From assembly GCA_022650895.1 (NCBI GenBank), contig JALCQC010000003.1:112052-176051 (forward strand): DNA of 64,000 bases. The letters are read 5' to 3'. This DNA is from Bifidobacteriaceae bacterium (GTDB taxonomy: Bacteria; Actinomycetota; Actinomycetes; Actinomycetales; Bifidobacteriaceae). A model generated the notes under the pieces. That model had not been told where the DNA came from, made no database searches, and saw only the letters and a list, made by a program, of their open reading frames with translations. The translations under genes were made by a program, and so were the position numbers. Shown here in pieces: positions 10,198 through 41,910 of this stretch (position 1 is the first letter of the stretch; every line of letters begins with the position of its first letter).

Positions 10198-10544
10198 TGT
10201 TCATTTCCTTTCATCGGCAGGTACGTGCCGAACGATCCGAGTAAAAGGTTTTTTTACTGGTTTTACTTATCACACTGACCGCAGCAAATCACAACACTGG
10301 TAAGCCTTGCTCTGTGTGTTGGTTCGTAGAAGATACTCTTCGTTGAGCCACCATGACTGTATCACAGTTCTCTGGATATGGCTAAGAAACGTTTCGACAC
10401 GCTGGATTTCCTAAGATTCCTAGGTTTCCAGCCGTTTCCCTCAGAGAGGACTGACGCACACGACATTACTTCGCCCCACTCTCCCACTCACTAGAAATCC
10501 AGCTCATTCACTAGACGTCCAAACGAATGCGCAACAATAAAGGT

Positions 10545-33829: not shown

Positions 33830-34825
33830 CTAGCGGAGATCGTATTTGACCTTCAGACGCTCAAGCTTTTCAAGAAAAGGCCGCGCGAGCACGAAGAGAA
33901 AGCACACCGTGGAAATGGCGTGCACCAAATCCATTGGAGCGCCCGAAACATACACCGCCAACAGGGACATCGGAGTGATCTGGGCGGAGTACATCAGCAA
34001 CGACGCCGGATTCATGATGAGACCATAGATGAAAAAGATGCTGAAGAATCCAAAAAGACACAGAGTCCACCGGTAGGCCGGCAAAATGTGAGCACGATGC
34101 AGCCCACCCGCAACAAAGCCGATGATTCCGAACGCCAACATCTGCCATGGAGTCCAGGGTCCCTGCCCGAAGAAGATGTTCGATACGAGCATGGTCATGC
34201 TTCCCACGATGAAGCCGGTTTCCCGCCCCAGAGACACACCGCTGATGATGACCAACGCCGCCACGGGCTTGAATTGCGGAAGCATGAAAAAGACACTGCG
34301 CCCGGCAACTCCAAGAGCGATCAGAGACGCAATCACCACCAGTTCGCGCGCGTGTGGCTTGCGGGTATCGAAGAGGAAAAGGAACAGCACTACCCCACAC
34401 AGAATGATCAGGATGCTGAGCGCTAGCGTATAGCGCACGCCGAGCCACATCTGCCCCAGTATGACCGCGGGAAACAGCAAGAGAACGAATGCCGTCTCGG
34501 TGAAGAATTGCCACCGTCCGCTCTTCCCGACCGGTCGGCACCATTTCACTGGCCCCTGTACCAGCTCGACATCGCTTTCCGTGATTTCCTGGGTCGCGGA
34601 GGCATCAGAAGTGACCGCAGTAGCGATACCAGAGCTGATACCAGACTTCTTGCCGCCTTTTTGATTGGCGCGTTCCATGGCATCGGTAACGTCCGTACTA
34701 TCCGCGGGGCCTACTGCGTCTGTAGCGTCCGTGGCGTCCGTGGCGTCTGCAGTGCTGACAGTATCCGCAGCAGAGTCCGCACGACCGTACAGTCCATCTA
34801 CGAACGAATGGAGTGCTTCAGACAT
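33830..34825 (-). CDS. ECF transporter substrate-specificity (S) component, possible cobalamin-type
   Basis: 331 aa; six-TM-like; PQFKPVAALVIISGVSLGRETGFIVGSMTMLVSNIFFGQGPWTPWQMLAFGIIGFVAGGL; cotranscribed with EcfA/EcfT. Confidence 0.82.
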   Translation of the reverse strand: MSEALHSFVDGLYGRADSAADTVSTADATDATDATDAVGPADSTDVTDAMERANQKGGKKSGISSGIATAVTSDASATQEITESDVELVQGPVKWCRPVGKSGRWQFFTETAFVLLLFPAVILGQMWLGVRYTLALSILIILCGVVLFLFLFDTRKPHARELVVIASLIALGVAGRSVFFMLPQFKPVAALVIISGVSLGRETGFIVGSMTMLVSNIFFGQGPWTPWQMLAFGIIGFVAGGLHRAHILPAYRWTLCLFGFFSIFFIYGLIMNPASLLMYSAQITPMSLLAVYVSGAPMDLVHAISTVCFLFVLARPFLEKLERLKVKYDLR

Positions 34826-36711
34826 GCGATAACCTCGTCTTTCGTTACAGCTTCGGGGAACCAGTCACGGGCGATACGACTCGCGCTGGTGGTATAGAAG
34901 TTGTTGGAACTGAAGAAAGTATTGACCGGCTCAACGCTCACCACGCGGCCGTTGAAAAAGAGCCCTGCGCGATCGGCTGCTCGGGCGGCGAATTCGATAT
35001 CGTGTGTCACCATCACAGTCGTTACTCCATGGTTTTTGAGCAGCTGCAAAAGTTCGATCACTCGCTTCTTCGCCTCTTCATCCAAACCCTTGGTGGGTTC
35101 GTCGAGCAGTAGGATCCTCGGTCGAAGCAGCAGAACCTTCAGAAGTGCCACCAGTTGCTGCTCACCTCCGCTGAGATCGAAGGGATGTCGGTCCAGTACC
35201 TCAGTGATACCGAGCGCTTCCGCCCCCTGTGCGATCTCTTCTTTCTCCCGCTCCGCAAGCTTTTCTTCATTGCCCCTCCCACGCAGTCGGTCCACCATGG
35301 GCAGTCGGTGTACCAGGGAAACGGGAGGAAGCACGGACGCCAAGTCGGCGGATACGGTCGATTTCACAAACATCGTCTGTGGATCCTGCGGAAGAACGCC
35401 CAGATAATGGTCAAAAAGCCTCTCCTCGGGAATGCGGGTAAGCCTCTTCCCCTCCAGCCGTACCGAACCCCGATAAGGCCGCCGCACCCCACTCAACAGC
35501 GAGATGAGGGTGCTCTTACCACTTCCGTTGGAGCCTACAAGTGCGAGAATCTCTCCCTTGCGAACGCTGAGATCCAACCCGCGCAGCAGATCCGGTTCAG
35601 CCGCACCGTAACGAAACCAGAGGTTCCGCGCCTCAAGGGCAACGGGAGCCGTGACCCGCTCATCTTCAGACTGCTCTTCAGCTTCTGTCTGAAGTCCGGA
35701 TGCGGGTTTGGGCGCGGAGCTCAGTTCAGGTGTGGGCGCGGGCACGGGCCCAGATTCTGATTCATGTTTAAGAGTGGGCGCAAGCACGGGTGCAGGTTCG
35801 CGACCGGCCCTCTCTTTTTGCGTGCGTTGCGGAGGCTCTCCCAGCATTGATTCAATCCACTGCTGCCCCTCTCCGATGGTCAGCGGAATCGGCCGCTGCG
35901 TCACTGCGGATGTTTCACGTGAAACATCTGTACGGCTCTCCATGAAAATCTGCGCTGCTTGCGGCATGGCCGCCGCGTACTGAGGATAGCGCCGCATGAT
36001 CTGCGGAATCGCTTCTTGTGGCGTTCCCGAAACGGCAATATGCCCCTCTGCCATAAACAGCAGCTGCGTGGCAAACGGTAGGATCTTCTGAAGCTCGTGC
36101 TCGGCCACCAGGATGGTGACACCGAGCTCATAGTTGAGGCGATGCAGCATCTGAATGAAAGAATCGGCTGAAATGGGATCCAGCTGCGCAGTGGGCTCAT
36201 CGAGAATGAGAAGGCGCGGATTCATCACCATGGAACTGGCGAGGTTGAGAATCTGCTTCTGACCTCCCGAGAGTTCGCTCACGTCTTTGTCAAACCATTC
36301 CTGGATGCCAAAGAACGTCGATATCTCGGCCACCTTGCGCTGTATCTCAGAGGAAGGCAGTCCCAGATTCTCCAGCCCGAAAGCCAGCTCGTGCCACACT
36401 TTATCGGTGACAATCTGGCTCTCCGACCGCTGCATCACAAAGCCGATATCCTCAGCGATAGCAGTGGACGAATCGGAGACGGCGGAGGAATCTCTCGTCA
36501 AAGGCTTTCCCTGCCACAGAACACTGCCCGTACGGGTGCCCGCATCCGCCAAGACGGGGTGCAATTGCTTCAGGAACGTCGTCTTCCCACTGCCATTCGC
36601 ACCCAGTAGAACGGTGAAGCTGCCCTCTTCCACATCGCATGAAACGGAATGCAGCAACGGCTCTCCCTGAGGGAAAGCAAAACCAAAGTCACGTACGGAG
36701 ATGAGAGCCAT
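34798..36711 (-). CDS. ECF transporter ATPase, tandem two-ATPase (EcfA-A') protein
   Basis: Two ABC modules: LLGANGSGKTTFLKQL...LSGGQKQILNLASSMVMNPRLLILDEPT and LVGSNGSGKSTLISLLSG...LSGGEQQLVALLKVLLLRPRILLLDEPTKGLD; start taken at ATG 36711. Confidence 0.93.
   Translation of the reverse strand: MALISVRDFGFAFPQGEPLLHSVSCDVEEGSFTVLLGANGSGKTTFLKQLHPVLADAGTRTGSVLWQGKPLTRDSSAVSDSSTAIAEDIGFVMQRSESQIVTDKVWHELAFGLENLGLPSSEIQRKVAEISTFFGIQEWFDKDVSELSGGQKQILNLASSMVMNPRLLILDEPTAQLDPISADSFIQMLHRLNYELGVTILVAEHELQKILPFATQLLFMAEGHIAVSGTPQEAIPQIMRRYPQYAAAMPQAAQIFMESRTDVSRETSAVTQRPIPLTIGEGQQWIESMLGEPPQRTQKERAGREPAPVLAPTLKHESESGPVPAPTPELSSAPKPASGLQTEAEEQSEDERVTAPVALEARNLWFRYGAAEPDLLRGLDLSVRKGEILALVGSNGSGKSTLISLLSGVRRPYRGSVRLEGKRLTRIPEERLFDHYLGVLPQDPQTMFVKSTVSADLASVLPPVSLVHRLPMVDRLRGRGNEEKLAEREKEEIAQGAEALGITEVLDRHPFDLSGGEQQLVALLKVLLLRPRILLLDEPTKGLDEEAKKRVIELLQLLKNHGVTTVMVTHDIEFAARAADRAGLFFNGRVVSVEPVNTFFSSNNFYTTSASRIARDWFPEAVTKDEVIACLKHSIRS
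35911..35926. promoter_or_regulatory. parS site within the ECF ATPase CDS
   Basis: TGTTTCACGTGAAACA; encodes DVSRETSAV in the minus-strand frame. Confidence 0.9.
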
Positions 36712-36712
36712 T

Positions 36713-37717
36713 TCAATCTTCCTTCTGCAGCACAGAGGCATACGGCAAGCGGCGGTCTGCCTGGCTCCCTGATAAAGCCCTTTGCTCATAGAGTCTCCAC
36801 TGCAACGCCGCCACCCCTCGTAACACCAAAGGAAGGTTGGCAAATACCGCAAAAACGACAACACCTATCCACGTCCATGCCGTTGCGTTTATCTCCACAA
36901 TCCCGCTGACGGCGATACTGGGATCATACTGAGACTCCAAACCGCCACTAAAAATGGACACGACAACAAGCGCTGCAGCCACAACGATCCCGCACAGAAG
37001 TCCCACGTTCCGCGCATCCCATCGATAGGGCGTGTACGACGTGCGGCGACGGTGCCCATAGGCCCGCGCCTTCATGGAATCGCTGACATGAATGGCATTT
37101 TCGAGTGACCATGTGAAAAGAGCGGAGGTCACCGCGAGCGCAGTACGCACCTTCTGCCATTTCCCGCTCCACCAATTCTGTTTTCCTGTCGAAACTGTAC
37201 GCGCACGTGCACTCCCAAGGTATTTCTGGCTGACGGCAGTGGCCTTGTATTGCCGAATGAAGAGCGGGATGAAACGAAAGCTCATGGAGAGAATCAACGA
37301 TGCCGTAGGGAAAATCCGACCAACCGCATACACGAATTTATCTCTCGTCAGCACCGCGTTGACGCTGACAAACCAGCTTGTGGCCACGGCGAGCGTACCT
37401 GCCAGAACAATGCCATATACGATGGCTTCAAGTGTCAAAGAATTGCCGTTATCGAAGGTGTAGAGCAGGGTGACGCCGTTGTGGTTGAACATCGGATTGA
37501 TGAGCGCCACCACAACGATCCCAGGAAGAATGAAAGCGGCATTAAGCGTGAGCACGTGGCGGAAACCCTTGAGCGCGATGGCATACAGGGTGGCGGAAAG
37601 GTATGAGATCACCAGGATAATCGGGTGAAGGCAAAACATGCTGATTCCCAGCACGCTGACGAAGAAAGCGAAATTGACGAGGGGATGGCACTGGGTGAAG
37701 GGGTCGGTGCGGACCAT
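36713..37717 (-). CDS. ECF transporter transmembrane (T) component
   Basis: 334 aa; DPFTQCHPLVNFAFFVSVLGISMFCLHP, FIPLFIRQYKATAVSQKYLGSARA, SMKARAYGHRRRTSY (EcfT-type). Confidence 0.9.
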   Translation of the reverse strand: MVRTDPFTQCHPLVNFAFFVSVLGISMFCLHPIILVISYLSATLYAIALKGFRHVLTLNAAFILPGIVVVALINPMFNHNGVTLLYTFDNGNSLTLEAIVYGIVLAGTLAVATSWFVSVNAVLTRDKFVYAVGRIFPTASLILSMSFRFIPLFIRQYKATAVSQKYLGSARARTVSTGKQNWWSGKWQKVRTALAVTSALFTWSLENAIHVSDSMKARAYGHRRRTSYTPYRWDARNVGLLCGIVVAAALVVVSIFSGGLESQYDPSIAVSGIVEINATAWTWIGVVVFAVFANLPLVLRGVAALQWRLYEQRALSGSQADRRLPYASVLQKED

Positions 37718-37891
37718 TCCACACCCTCCTTCCCGCGGGACATGTCGAAGTCTCCCACATCATATCTGCGCATCGCAGCCTATGTGCCACTCTGCCTGTT
37801 TACCTCTTACCTTGCCTGCATCTGTCGCGCCAAACTCACGGCCTAACCCGCCGGCTTGCCAAACTCACTATCAAACCGCCATCAAATCCGT

Positions 37892-39229
37892 CTACATGCC
37901 TCCGCCGATGTCCGCTCCCAACTCACGCGTGTACCGCCACTTGACCACGGACCCATTATGCAGGCTCGTATACTGCGAGGCTCCATAGTTGGGGAACCAA
38001 CCGTCCACGCTATACATCCAACCAGAAGCGCTGCCCGCATCAAATTCGTAGAGCTGGCCTATGCCCTCGATATACGCCGATCCATACATTGGCGTGTAGG
38101 AAGACTCCATCTGAATCTTATGCGCCTTCGTCACGGAGACGAGGAGATCGTAGACGCTCTCACCTTGCTTGGCAGTAACGGTTGTCGGTGCCAGAATCCA
38201 GCCATTTGCTGGCACATAGGCTCGTTTGTTCGCACTCACTTCCGCCAGATGCCCCACGAGGGTCTTGGCATCGATGGACACCGTCACGCGGATGGTTCCG
38301 TCCGATTTACTGCTGCCACCTGCTGTCTTCCCCGAGGAACTCCCCGACGTGGCATTACTTCCCGAAAGCGCAGAGCTGTTTCCTGATGCACCGGAAGCAC
38401 CCGAGGTGCTGGATGACGTGCCAGAACCGGTACCTGTCGAACTCGAACCGCTGCCAGTGCTACTACCGGCCCCGCTGCCGTCTGCCAACGTACCGGAACC
38501 ATCAGCGCCAGCCGACGCCGCTGCCCCGTCACTTCCTTCTCCTGCATCATGGGAGCCATCAGCACTATTCTTGCCACCGGATGCCTTGGTGTCCGATTTC
38601 GAGCCCGCTCCGCCCACGAAATACACCGTCTGATGCGTCACCGTGACCGTCGACGTCACCACCGTTGTTTTCTTCTGAACGCTCAGCTTCGGAGCAGCAG
38701 AGGAGATCTGACGCAATTCATTGTTTTGCTTTGCGACTGCGACGACACGGTTTGCGGACCATTTCGAGGGAACCGTGATAACGAGTTGGGGGCTTCCCGC
38801 CAACTCGAAGTTTGCGATGGTTGCCGACAGCGCATACGGAGCGTTGGCGGCAGCCTTCTTCACCGCATCGAGATTCTTCTCCGACAGGGTGACCTTGAGC
38901 TTCTGTTCGGTGGGATTCTTGATCTGTTCCGCTTGATAGCGCCACTCATAGGCATATTTACCGCTCTTTCCAGTGAAGCTGTAAGTACCGGTCTTGCCGA
39001 CAAGAGTCTTCATCTGATCAGCCGTAATGACACCATTGCTTGGCAGTTTCGTCGTCTTCGCCAAGGACTGTTGTGCGGAGGCACCGGTGACCCCAGCAGC
39101 ACCAGTGGCGTCGGCGGCGGTACCGCACCCCGCGAGCGCCCCCACGCTCAAAACCGCACTGACGAAAATCCCGACGATCTTTTTAAGATTTCTCACTACT
39201 ATCTGCCTCATTCCCCGTTTGTCCACCAC
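37892..39229 (-). CDS. Lipoprotein with C-terminal DUF4430-like (transcobalamin beta-domain-like) module
   Basis: 445 aa; lipobox VGALAGCG; Ser/Gly linker; C-terminal SVYDLLVSVTKAHKIQMESSYTPMYGSAYIEGIGQLYEFDAGSASGWMYSVDGWFPNYGASQYTSLHNGSVVKWRYTRELGADIGGGM. Confidence 0.85.
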   Translation of the reverse strand: MVDKRGMRQIVVRNLKKIVGIFVSAVLSVGALAGCGTAADATGAAGVTGASAQQSLAKTTKLPSNGVITADQMKTLVGKTGTYSFTGKSGKYAYEWRYQAEQIKNPTEQKLKVTLSEKNLDAVKKAAANAPYALSATIANFELAGSPQLVITVPSKWSANRVVAVAKQNNELRQISSAAPKLSVQKKTTVVTSTVTVTHQTVYFVGGAGSKSDTKASGGKNSADGSHDAGEGSDGAAASAGADGSGTLADGSGAGSSTGSGSSSTGTGSGTSSSTSGASGASGNSSALSGSNATSGSSSGKTAGGSSKSDGTIRVTVSIDAKTLVGHLAEVSANKRAYVPANGWILAPTTVTAKQGESVYDLLVSVTKAHKIQMESSYTPMYGSAYIEGIGQLYEFDAGSASGWMYSVDGWFPNYGASQYTSLHNGSVVKWRYTRELGADIGGGM

Positions 39230-39257
39230 TCACTGACGTTGTGGCACTGCCCATCGT

Positions 39258-41246
39258 TCACCGACGCACTCCACCCTTGCGAATTTTCGCCGTAGCAATG
39301 CCCGCCACAACGATGACCAGCACAATCGTTGCAATGACAGCAGCGATGATCGCGGCCCTACGTGAACCCTCTGCCTCTGTCGTCATACGGGCAGGATCGG
39401 ATTCAGCCGCTGCATCTGCGGAGTTTGCGTCATTCGTCGCGGGAGAATTCTGAGCATTCTCATCGGAGTCATATTCCTTAGCGGAGAATTTCCAGTCTTT
39501 CGCGGACTTGTTTTTTCCGTTTTTCTCCTTGCCAACTACTCCAGCCGCCTCACTTGTTCCAGCCGCTTTAATCCTGGTTGCCCCACTTATCCTGGTCATT
39601 CCAGCTCCGCCCATGACACGTGACGCCACAGCATCAGAAAGTACTCCCGCTGCCGGGCTGCTCACCTGTTTGATCTGCTTCCTGAAGGTATTCAGTGCAT
39701 TGTCTCGGACCAATTCACTAGAGCTTTTTGTCTTTGTTGCGCTCTTTGAGTTTCCGCGGGAAGCTGTGGTTTTATGCGTATTTTCGGTCTTCGTGGAGGT
39801 GCTTGAGCTCCCCTTACTTCCGGTGTTTTCACTGGTTCCAGTAGTCGTGGAGTCTCCCGTTGTTGTGGAACCATCGGAGTTCGCGGTATTTCCTGTTGCG
39901 TCAGAATTGCCGGAGTCACCTGTGTTTTCCTCGGAGTTTGTTCCAGATTCTTCTCCCGACGATGATCCGTCCCCCTGATTCTGTGAATCATCAGCTGAGG
40001 ACTCATCGTTTTTGAAGGTCACATCGCTCATGTCATAGAGAGAGGACGCTCCGGAAAGATAACGGTCATAGGCGACCAGCGCATAGAAATCCTGCTCCGT
40101 TGCCATTGCATTCACCGTGCCTGCATCCACCGGCCGATAACAAAATCCTCCACCATCGACGGAATAACTCAGAAGCATCTCGATCGCGCTTGTGCCCTCC
40201 CCCTTCACAAAGCGGGAGTCGGTACTTGAAATTCCCAATGCACTGAGCGCGGTGACAACCTGAGCCGAAGAATTAGAATTCTCCGCTCCCCAAGAGGCAA
40301 ATCCACCATCATTGAGCTGAATGCTGCTTAAATAGTCCACCGCCTTCTCGATGGCGTCAGTGATCTTATTGCCGGTGTCGTATTTCGTCTCCTTCAACGG
40401 AGCCAACGCCTCGAGCGCCATGGCGGTGTAATCAGGATCAGAGTTCCACGAGTTGTTCGCCTTTCTCAGGCTCAGCAAGGAATCAACGAGCGCTTCGACG
40501 GTGACGGGCTGTGAGGTCGCGCTGTCCCCGGTTGAAGAAGAAGGTGCGACAAACTGATATTCCGGCCGCAGTTCCCATGCGATAAGCGCGAAAGTCGGCC
40601 CGTTCGGTCCTTGTCTTGTGATGTTTTCAAGGTCAGTAAGATGATCGAAAAGGTTGAAGCCCCCGATGTTCTGGGCGTCATAACCCATCGCTGTCAGCGC
40701 GATGATGATGCGGTCGTAATCCGTTGCCTTGGTGGCGTTCGTCAACGCTCCATCATTGGCCTTCAGCTGTGCAACGACATCGTCGTAATACTGTTCATAT
40801 AGTTTCGCCGTCGCAGCACCGGAAGTATCCGTACTTGAACTTGTGCCAGTGCCTGCACCCGCAGCTACAGAATCCTGCACATCCCTCGCCAGGGCGAACA
40901 TCTGCCATTCCGATACCGTGCCAAAAACTGATTTGCCTTCAGTTTTCTGCGTGATCTGGCGCAGAAGATACTCACGTGTTTCCTTAAGGGTCTTCCTGAG
41001 ATCCTGGGAGATTGTTGCTTCGGAAGACTGCGAGGTCTGCGCTGCAACGGTTTGCGCACCTGTACCCGTACTGGTTTGTGTACTAGTTTGTGCACTTGTC
41101 TGTCCGCTGACGGTATTGCTTCCGGCACCATTATCCGCCGCCACAGCAAGGTTCGCGGGAATCAACGTGGCGACTCCCAATAGGAGTCCTACAGCGGCAT
41201 TCACCCACGCTGCCGTACCTCTTTGTCCCGGGAATTTCTTACCCAT
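39258..41246 (-). CDS. Secreted, C-terminally TM-anchored prenyltransferase/squalene-cyclase-repeat (alpha/alpha barrel) protein
   Basis: Signal peptide, repeat-like IIALTAMGYDAQNIGG / LAPLKETKYDTGNKITDAIEKAVDYLSSIQLNDGGFASWG / VVTALSALGISSTDSRF; Ser/Thr linker; C-terminal TM + RKGGVRR; start chosen at ATG 41246, which has an AAGGAG Shine-Dalgarno. Confidence 0.82.
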   Translation of the reverse strand: MGKKFPGQRGTAAWVNAAVGLLLGVATLIPANLAVAADNGAGSNTVSGQTSAQTSTQTSTGTGAQTVAAQTSQSSEATISQDLRKTLKETREYLLRQITQKTEGKSVFGTVSEWQMFALARDVQDSVAAGAGTGTSSSTDTSGAATAKLYEQYYDDVVAQLKANDGALTNATKATDYDRIIIALTAMGYDAQNIGGFNLFDHLTDLENITRQGPNGPTFALIAWELRPEYQFVAPSSSTGDSATSQPVTVEALVDSLLSLRKANNSWNSDPDYTAMALEALAPLKETKYDTGNKITDAIEKAVDYLSSIQLNDGGFASWGAENSNSSAQVVTALSALGISSTDSRFVKGEGTSAIEMLLSYSVDGGGFCYRPVDAGTVNAMATEQDFYALVAYDRYLSGASSLYDMSDVTFKNDESSADDSQNQGDGSSSGEESGTNSEENTGDSGNSDATGNTANSDGSTTTGDSTTTGTSENTGSKGSSSTSTKTENTHKTTASRGNSKSATKTKSSSELVRDNALNTFRKQIKQVSSPAAGVLSDAVASRVMGGAGMTRISGATRIKAAGTSEAAGVVGKEKNGKNKSAKDWKFSAKEYDSDENAQNSPATNDANSADAAAESDPARMTTEAEGSRRAAIIAAVIATIVLVIVVAGIATAKIRKGGVRR

Positions 41247-41289
41247 TCTTCCGCTCCTTGCTGCTTTCAATCTCTTCATCACAAATTCA

Positions 41290-41460
41290 AGTGTCAGATT
41301 CTGACGGTCGCCATCGCCGTCTCGATCCTGTGTTTCAGCAGTTACCCGCCAGCGGGTCCTGCCCCAGTCCAAGGATCACCTTCAGGGTGAACTCGGCCGG
41401 TCGGCACCATGCCCACAGAAACCCAACCACGGCGCCCATTGAGTCCACTCATGCTGTTAC
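41290..41460 (-). promoter_or_regulatory. Structured leader candidate upstream of the ECF/exoprotein operon
   Basis: Perfect hairpins TCACC-CTGAA-GGTGA (41376-41390), ACCCG-CTGG-CGGGT flanked by GCAG/CTGC (41338-41362), GTCAGA-A-TCTGAC (41293-41305). Confidence 0.4.
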
Positions 41461-41760
41461 GCATGAGCACATAACATCTCCACTGAAAACACTACATCTA
41501 GTATTGTTCACATCTTTCAACACCACAGTTAGTGTATGGGGCTCATGCACGACTCGCAAGCTCGCCCGCAGTGACACTTTTCACAAGAACTACTTTGGCA
41601 GCACTATTTGCCCCGCAGATTCACCCTTCTCTCTACCCTCATTCGATCTCAACTAGTGATCTCTACTAGCCCCCTCCCGTGCTGAACTGAGCCCAATCTC
41701 GGAGAATTTACAGCCCTTTGTAACAGCCGATAGAAAATGCGAAGAGGGAAAGGGAGAGGA

Positions 41761-41808
41761 CAGGCAATCAGGCAATCAGGCAATCAGGCAATCAGGCAAT
41801 CAGGCAAT
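41761..41808. repeat. Six perfect tandem copies of 8-bp unit CAGGCAAT
   Basis: Direct reading: (CAGGCAAT)x6 then CT. Confidence 0.97.
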
Positions 41809-41910
41809 CTTAATTTGCCCGATCTCCCGACTCACCCTCACCTCAAAACTTTCGTTTTCAAGATGAAAATCATTATTAATAAATTGGATGTACTAACTTG
41901 TATTCTGACA

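Follow-up and report, generated by a model that had tools for sequence, protein, structure and literature searches.

The analyzed window, a 64,000-nucleotide stretch of the genome of a Bifidobacteriaceae bacterium, harbors five intact open reading frames on its minus strand (window positions 33830 to 41279), which are transcribed in the order B, D, T, A, and S. The first gene, B (about 39258 to 41279), encodes a secreted protein of 673 amino acids when read from an ATG at 41279, this being the likely start codon, with 41246 and a TTG at 41372 also possible. Its product possesses a hydrophobic, signal-like N-terminus, a strong C-terminal transmembrane helix (residues 643 to 661) by which it would be anchored, and an alpha/alpha toroid domain (40005 to 41024), which was delimited using a 54-sequence alignment and a structural model and to which Pfam assigns a weak SQHop_cyclase_C match (8e-5). 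The product of D (37892 to 39229; 445 amino acids) is a lipoprotein with a lipobox (LAGC, residues 32 to 35), in which an N-terminal beta domain is joined by a low-complexity linker to a C-terminal DUF4430 domain (37895 to 38269; Pfam, 1.9e-14; mean column identity of 71% in a 53-sequence alignment). T (36713 to 37717; 334 amino acids) encodes the transmembrane coupling protein EcfT, as indicated by a Pfam CbiQ match (3.3e-6), predicted transmembrane segments, and two A-R-A motifs, while A (34798 to 36711; 637 amino acids) encodes a tandem EcfA-A′ energy-coupling ATPase, whose single chain carries two nucleotide-binding domains, each with a full set of Walker A, signature, and Walker B motifs (Pfam ABC_tran over two stretches; NCBIfam ECF_ATPase_1, 8e-92). 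The last gene, S (33830 to 34825; 331 amino acids), specifies an S component which bears a low-complexity N-terminal extension, matches the ECF S-component families of Pfam, and is of the CbrT type on the basis of profile match and identity.

The gene content put forward in a preliminary description of this DNA, namely, a minus-strand operon encoding an alpha/alpha-barrel exoprotein, a DUF4430 lipoprotein, EcfT, EcfA-A′, and an S component, is borne out by these intact reading frames and by the agreement of the Pfam and NCBIfam assignments. The tight spacing that it reported holds for S and A, which overlap by 28 nt, and for the gaps between A and T (1 nt) and between D and B (28 nt), but not for D and T, whose separation of 174 nt is the sole loose spacing in the operon. 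As T, A-A′, and S are encoded within one operon, the transporter is of the group I (dedicated) ECF type. An identical gene set occupies the same chromosomal site, adjoining parB/parA, in two congeners, G016 (locus L168) and G028 (L170), the T gene of G016 not having been called under the open reading frame filter used; the operon is therefore a product of neither chance nor contamination. The lengthy spacer separating parB from B contains an 8-bp unit, CAGGCAAT, repeated head to tail (41753 to 41816), and elsewhere in the window the minus strand carries an msiK RNA motif (10199 to 10256; Rfam RF01747, 59 bits).

Comparison of the S component with CbrT-type proteins, as proposed in the preliminary description, gave a clear outcome. 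CbrT was the only match to the S sequence in the PDB using phmmer, and a profile built from 26 orthologues matched CbrT (6FNP_A) with an E value of 2e-16, the next chain, 4HZU_S, following at 0.004. The S component, which shares 57 to 78% identity over 181 columns with its orthologues, thus did not cluster with another vitamin or metal family, an outcome which had been named in advance as grounds for rejecting the cobalamin assignment.

The preliminary description further equated the barrel of B and the DUF4430 domain of D with the two domains of intrinsic factor and transcobalamin, an equation to be abandoned if neither protein resembled them. A model of D, built from 42 orthologues, displays a confident N-terminal beta domain and an equally confident C-terminal DUF4430 domain separated by a disordered linker. 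When this fold was searched against the PDB, every one of the 17 best matches was to transcobalamin, haptocorrin, or intrinsic factor, at E values of 2.2e-5 to 2.9e-4, with the first match thereafter at an E value of 0.03, and the DUF4430 domain aligned with the isolated human transcobalamin beta domain (5NO0) with a TM of 0.77 by target length. In the model, two strands (residues 339 to 344 and 349 to 355) follow a helix at 324 to 334 and may correspond to the beta-hairpin insert located behind the helix in transcobalamin-like SLBB domains. D, therefore, clearly resembles the beta domain, whereas the correspondence of B holds only at the level of fold class. The toroid model (pLDDT of 90.9) is essentially all-helical, and its matches are alpha/alpha toroids in general, headed by terpene cyclases at a TM of about 0.5, with no transcobalamin or intrinsic factor, and hence no specific structural link to the transcobalamin alpha domain, among the 50 matches listed. 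Because its nearest folds are terpene cyclases, the likeness of the barrel to intrinsic factor rests on its pairing with D and not on its fold. Searches of the PDB with sequence profiles of B and D returned no match to animal intrinsic factor or transcobalamin, the link having been provided by the fold search of D alone.

To place the operon among its relatives, 80 loci with relatives of the S component were annotated, the toroid-DUF4430-T-A-S layout being found in most of them. The distribution of the two domains onto two separately anchored polypeptides, as previously described, is thus correct for this operon but is not peculiar to it, separate B and D genes being usual in the Bacillota. 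Several of the loci (L031, L080, L007, and L002) encode large surface proteins which contain several toroid and/or DUF4430 domains and adjoin the same importer genes, and some of these proteins carry S-layer, Big_2, or ChW domains. Several cysteines that are common in DUF4430 domains of the Bacillota (in DCG, YGCS, and YTCDLG) are all replaced in D (37895 to 38269), as if disulfides had been lost in this lineage. Rfam models were scanned against 24 loci, comprising 23 from the Bacillota and one from the Bifidobacteriaceae (L001), and a cobalamin riboswitch, oriented like the operon, immediately preceded its first gene in 12 of the 23 Bacillota loci (L002, L003, L004, L008, L010, L016, L018, L023, L031, L035, L062, and L080). 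At the Enterococcus locus L002, another such riboswitch and genes for diol dehydratase come after the operon.

Within the family, a DUF4430 domain of the D type is confined to this genus (3 of 151 genomes). Fifteen other family genomes possess an S homologue in the absence of DUF4430, and the capture pair is accordingly not needed for import in general. In the S component tree, the members of the genus are united in a single group with support of 97/99, and the sequences nearest to it are from Enterococcus (67 to 71% identity). The nrdJ-linked S genes from other Bifidobacteriaceae are set apart by a long branch of their own; the two S groups are nonetheless joined by profile comparison (hhalign, 99.9%). 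This placement, near Enterococcus and far from the S genes of other Bifidobacteriaceae, suggests that the whole five-gene set was transferred from the Bacillota, with the fork near Enterococcus itself being weakly supported.

A search of the genome for B12-dependent enzymes, also called for in the preliminary description, identified a plausible consumer of the imported vitamin. Apart from the transporter, the genome carries in tandem (G000 C2:51999-54948; L167:7954-11053) genes for an adenosylcobalamin-dependent class II (nrdJ-type) ribonucleotide reductase, RTPR (E value of 4e-225; 1,026 bits to 1L1L, a solved B12-dependent reductase), and for the adenosyltransferase PduO. The only other ribonucleotide reductase found was the class III enzyme NrdD, no class I NrdA/E being detected in this genome; the corrin-ring gene cbiC was absent from this and related genomes, and the B12-binding domain PF02310 from this one. 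Enzymes with a B12-binding domain (MetH and mutases) were considered as consumers, and none exceeded the cutoff in the family. These absences are provisional, as the genome is a draft of 88% completeness; G016 (95% complete) likewise lacks a class I reductase and CbiC. The cell thus appears unable to make B12 and without a class I reductase, so that import would serve the supply of DNA precursors.

Across the 151 family genomes, PduO and full-length RTPR are restricted to one identical set of 16, each of which also encodes a CbrT-type S homologue, a co-occurrence whose naive P value of about 1e-19 is overstated because the genomes are related. Two further genomes are positive for S: G028, which is 76% complete and in which part of an RTPR gene lies at the end of a contig, and G030, in which the match is weak. 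No class I reductase was seen in 14 of the 16 genomes, and the B12 supply should, as a consequence, matter for the growth of these organisms. In other genera of the family, the S gene resides in nrdJ-(T)-A-S-pduO clusters (L171 to L180), which are similar in layout to the nrdJ-cbrS-cbrT-pduO cluster of Lactobacillus delbrueckii (PMC5997447) and most of which are preceded by paired NrdR-like boxes, and these genomes encode no DUF4430 proteins.

A cobalamin riboswitch (RF00174) was found neither in the window, including the leader of the operon, nor in the genome, and a search of the leader for an unrecognized version, using Rfam at E values of up to 10, gave nothing relevant. One stretch of the leader (41282 to 41470) folds better than its shuffled counterparts (z of −3.67), an indication of a structured leader which was set aside because neither G016 nor G028 conserves it. 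A consensus scan instead located two NrdR-box-like palindromes on the minus strand, ACACTAACTGTGGTGT (41520 to 41535) and, 31 bp from it, ATACTAGATGTAGTGT (41489 to 41504), the pair being situated 210 nt upstream of the likely B start codon. The consensus and spacing applied are reportedly those of Rodionov and Gelfand from 2005. Scored against this consensus, the pair (25 of 32) is the best in the window, in which the next scores 20, and exceeds the best score from 100 Markov windows (22). Its conservation in G016 and G028 means that the operon is headed by such a pair in three members of the genus; comparable pairs are found ahead of nrdJ in this genome, G016, and the majority of the other family members inspected. 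The genome also contains an NrdR gene (E value of 1.4e-47) which, together with putative boxes about 31 bp apart upstream, would place the operon in an NrdR regulon, as judged by this consensus.

A similar arrangement recurs in Lacticaseibacillus pantheris, in which the operon, at a locus devoid of a riboswitch, is preceded at a distance of about 110 nt by a pair with a score of 25 (L005:4085-4132), and the RTPR gene by a further NrdR-like pair (L194:3528-3575). The RTPR gene reads as two open reading frames in that assembly, which reflects either a true break or a sequencing error. As a check on the scan, the pair detected at L010 was found to adjoin a putative divergent nrdD start. In Pseudomonas aeruginosa, two NrdR boxes lie ahead of each ribonucleotide reductase gene set (PMC4409342). 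The occurrence of NrdR-like boxes before both the operon and nrdJ suggests a coupling of B12 import to the supply of dNTPs. It is probable that in this genus and, separately, in Lacticaseibacillus, the capture operon has come to share the paired NrdR boxes of the B12-dependent reductase gene in place of the riboswitch of its relatives, whereby corrinoid scavenging would be scaled to the demand for DNA precursors via occupancy of the boxes by the dNTP-sensing repressor NrdR.

Taken together, the operon is proposed, with a probability of roughly 0.85, to encode a dedicated (group I) CbrT-family ECF importer for cobalamin or cobinamide which is equipped with an extracellular capture pair and feeds RTPR. 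The surface cobalamin or cobinoid capture system envisaged at the outset is well supported by the family of S, the fold of D, the riboswitches of orthologous operons, and the presence of RTPR and PduO. The transmembrane-anchored toroid of B and the transcobalamin-like beta domain of D most likely hold the corrinoid clamped between the two proteins on the outer side of the membrane and would then pass it to the S component, which, with EcfT and EcfA-A′, is presumed to carry it into the cell. Following adenosylation by PduO, the resulting adenosylcobalamin would serve RTPR; import would in this way support DNA-precursor supply, with the operon appearing to be under NrdR control together with nrdJ.

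That the transporter is instead dedicated to another micronutrient, such as riboflavin, folate, heme, or a metal, might be argued from family names, since the best Pfam name for S is ECF-ribofla_trS (1.4e-8), its best NCBIfam match is a weak FolT-family hit far under the cutoff, and T and A match cobalt-transport families. This is, however, highly improbable, as CbrT is by far the closest solved relative of S, roughly half of the scanned orthologous operons are headed by cobalamin riboswitches, and S co-occurs almost perfectly with RTPR and PduO. An emphasis on incomplete corrinoids, whereby mainly cobinamide would be taken up and completed inside the cell, draws on the ability of CbrT of Lactobacillus delbrueckii to take up cobinamide as well (PMC5997447), yet L. 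delbrueckii itself lacks the lower-ligand genes CobS/CobU/CobT (PMC5997447), and we regard this emphasis as improbable for the present operon.

The division of labor between B and D invites more debate. Cobalamin could be imported by the ECF transporter without B and D forming a joint sandwich, each binding a corrinoid or something else (e.g., the cell wall) by itself, or D acting as the sole capture protein. The absence of a specific likeness between the barrel and the transcobalamin alpha domain is in keeping with such an arrangement, as are the additional N-terminal beta domain of D and the further DUF4430 proteins and extra toroids in related operons. It is nevertheless considered rather unlikely, because B and D are adjacent in most loci, because toroid and DUF4430 are fused in one chain, as in transcobalamin, at L031, L080, L002, L023, and L062, and because cooperation of the two domains has been argued previously (Burroughs et al. 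2007; PMC1796856). Clamping of the corrinoid between B and D consequently remains the preferred model.

Since the core idea was published by Burroughs et al. in 2007 (PMC1796856), the operon represents a further example of a predicted system. In the open-licence literature searched, we found no test of that prediction of a transcobalamin-like receptor and, as a weak negative, no description of such a capture system in the Bifidobacteriaceae, of the association of CbrT with RTPR/PduO in this family, or of the NrdR boxes. The present analysis strengthens the 2007 prediction of a Gram-positive transcobalamin-like receptor by adding the identity of the S component, the riboswitch linkage, and a dependent enzyme, and it indicates the presence of B12 users in a family that is not generally regarded as containing them. 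The newest element of the finding is the NrdR link; judging from the NrdR-like boxes, scavenging of the vitamin would appear to be directly coupled, at the regulatory level, to the synthesis of dNTPs.

Among known systems, the closest parallel is provided by the transcobalamin-like domains of low-GC Gram-positive bacteria, which are found fused with toroids and in operons with CbiO/CbiQ, usually in hosts without B12 synthesis, and for which B12 scavenging was predicted (Burroughs et al. 2007; PMC1796856). As in those SLBB systems, the present operon combines genes for a toroid and a secreted beta-grasp domain with those for a transporter of the CbiO/CbiQ kind, in a host in which no CbiC was found and which, by this measure, appears to lack B12 synthesis, and its DUF4430 domain probably belongs to the transcobalamin-like SLBB clade, the beta-grasp matching the transcobalamin beta domain. 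It differs in belonging to the Bifidobacteriaceae, in the CbrT type of its S component, in having a host genome that also encodes RTPR and PduO, and in being preceded by NrdR-like boxes and not a riboswitch. With CbrT of L. delbrueckii (6FNP), encoded in an nrdJ-cbrS-cbrT-pduO cluster (PMC5997447), the operon shares the S family and a genomic link to B12 use, in the form of nrdJ and pduO and, at orthologous operons though not here, of riboswitches; L. delbrueckii CbrT draws on an ECF module that also serves other S components, whereas here the genes for T, A-A′, and S accompany those for an extracellular capture pair. The resemblance to animal intrinsic factor, transcobalamin, and haptocorrin lies in a DUF4430 domain with the transcobalamin beta-domain fold and an alpha/alpha toroid partner encoded alongside. 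Unlike the animal proteins, in which toroid and beta domain follow one another in a single chain, the two are here separately anchored proteins (two reading frames 28 nt apart), and the toroid is of the same broad fold class only, with no sequence similarity by the profiles used. In BtuF-BtuCD and in Bacteroides BtuG, proteins that are to our knowledge unrelated to those of this operon, surface or periplasmic capture of a corrinoid feeds an ATP-driven importer, as is proposed here.
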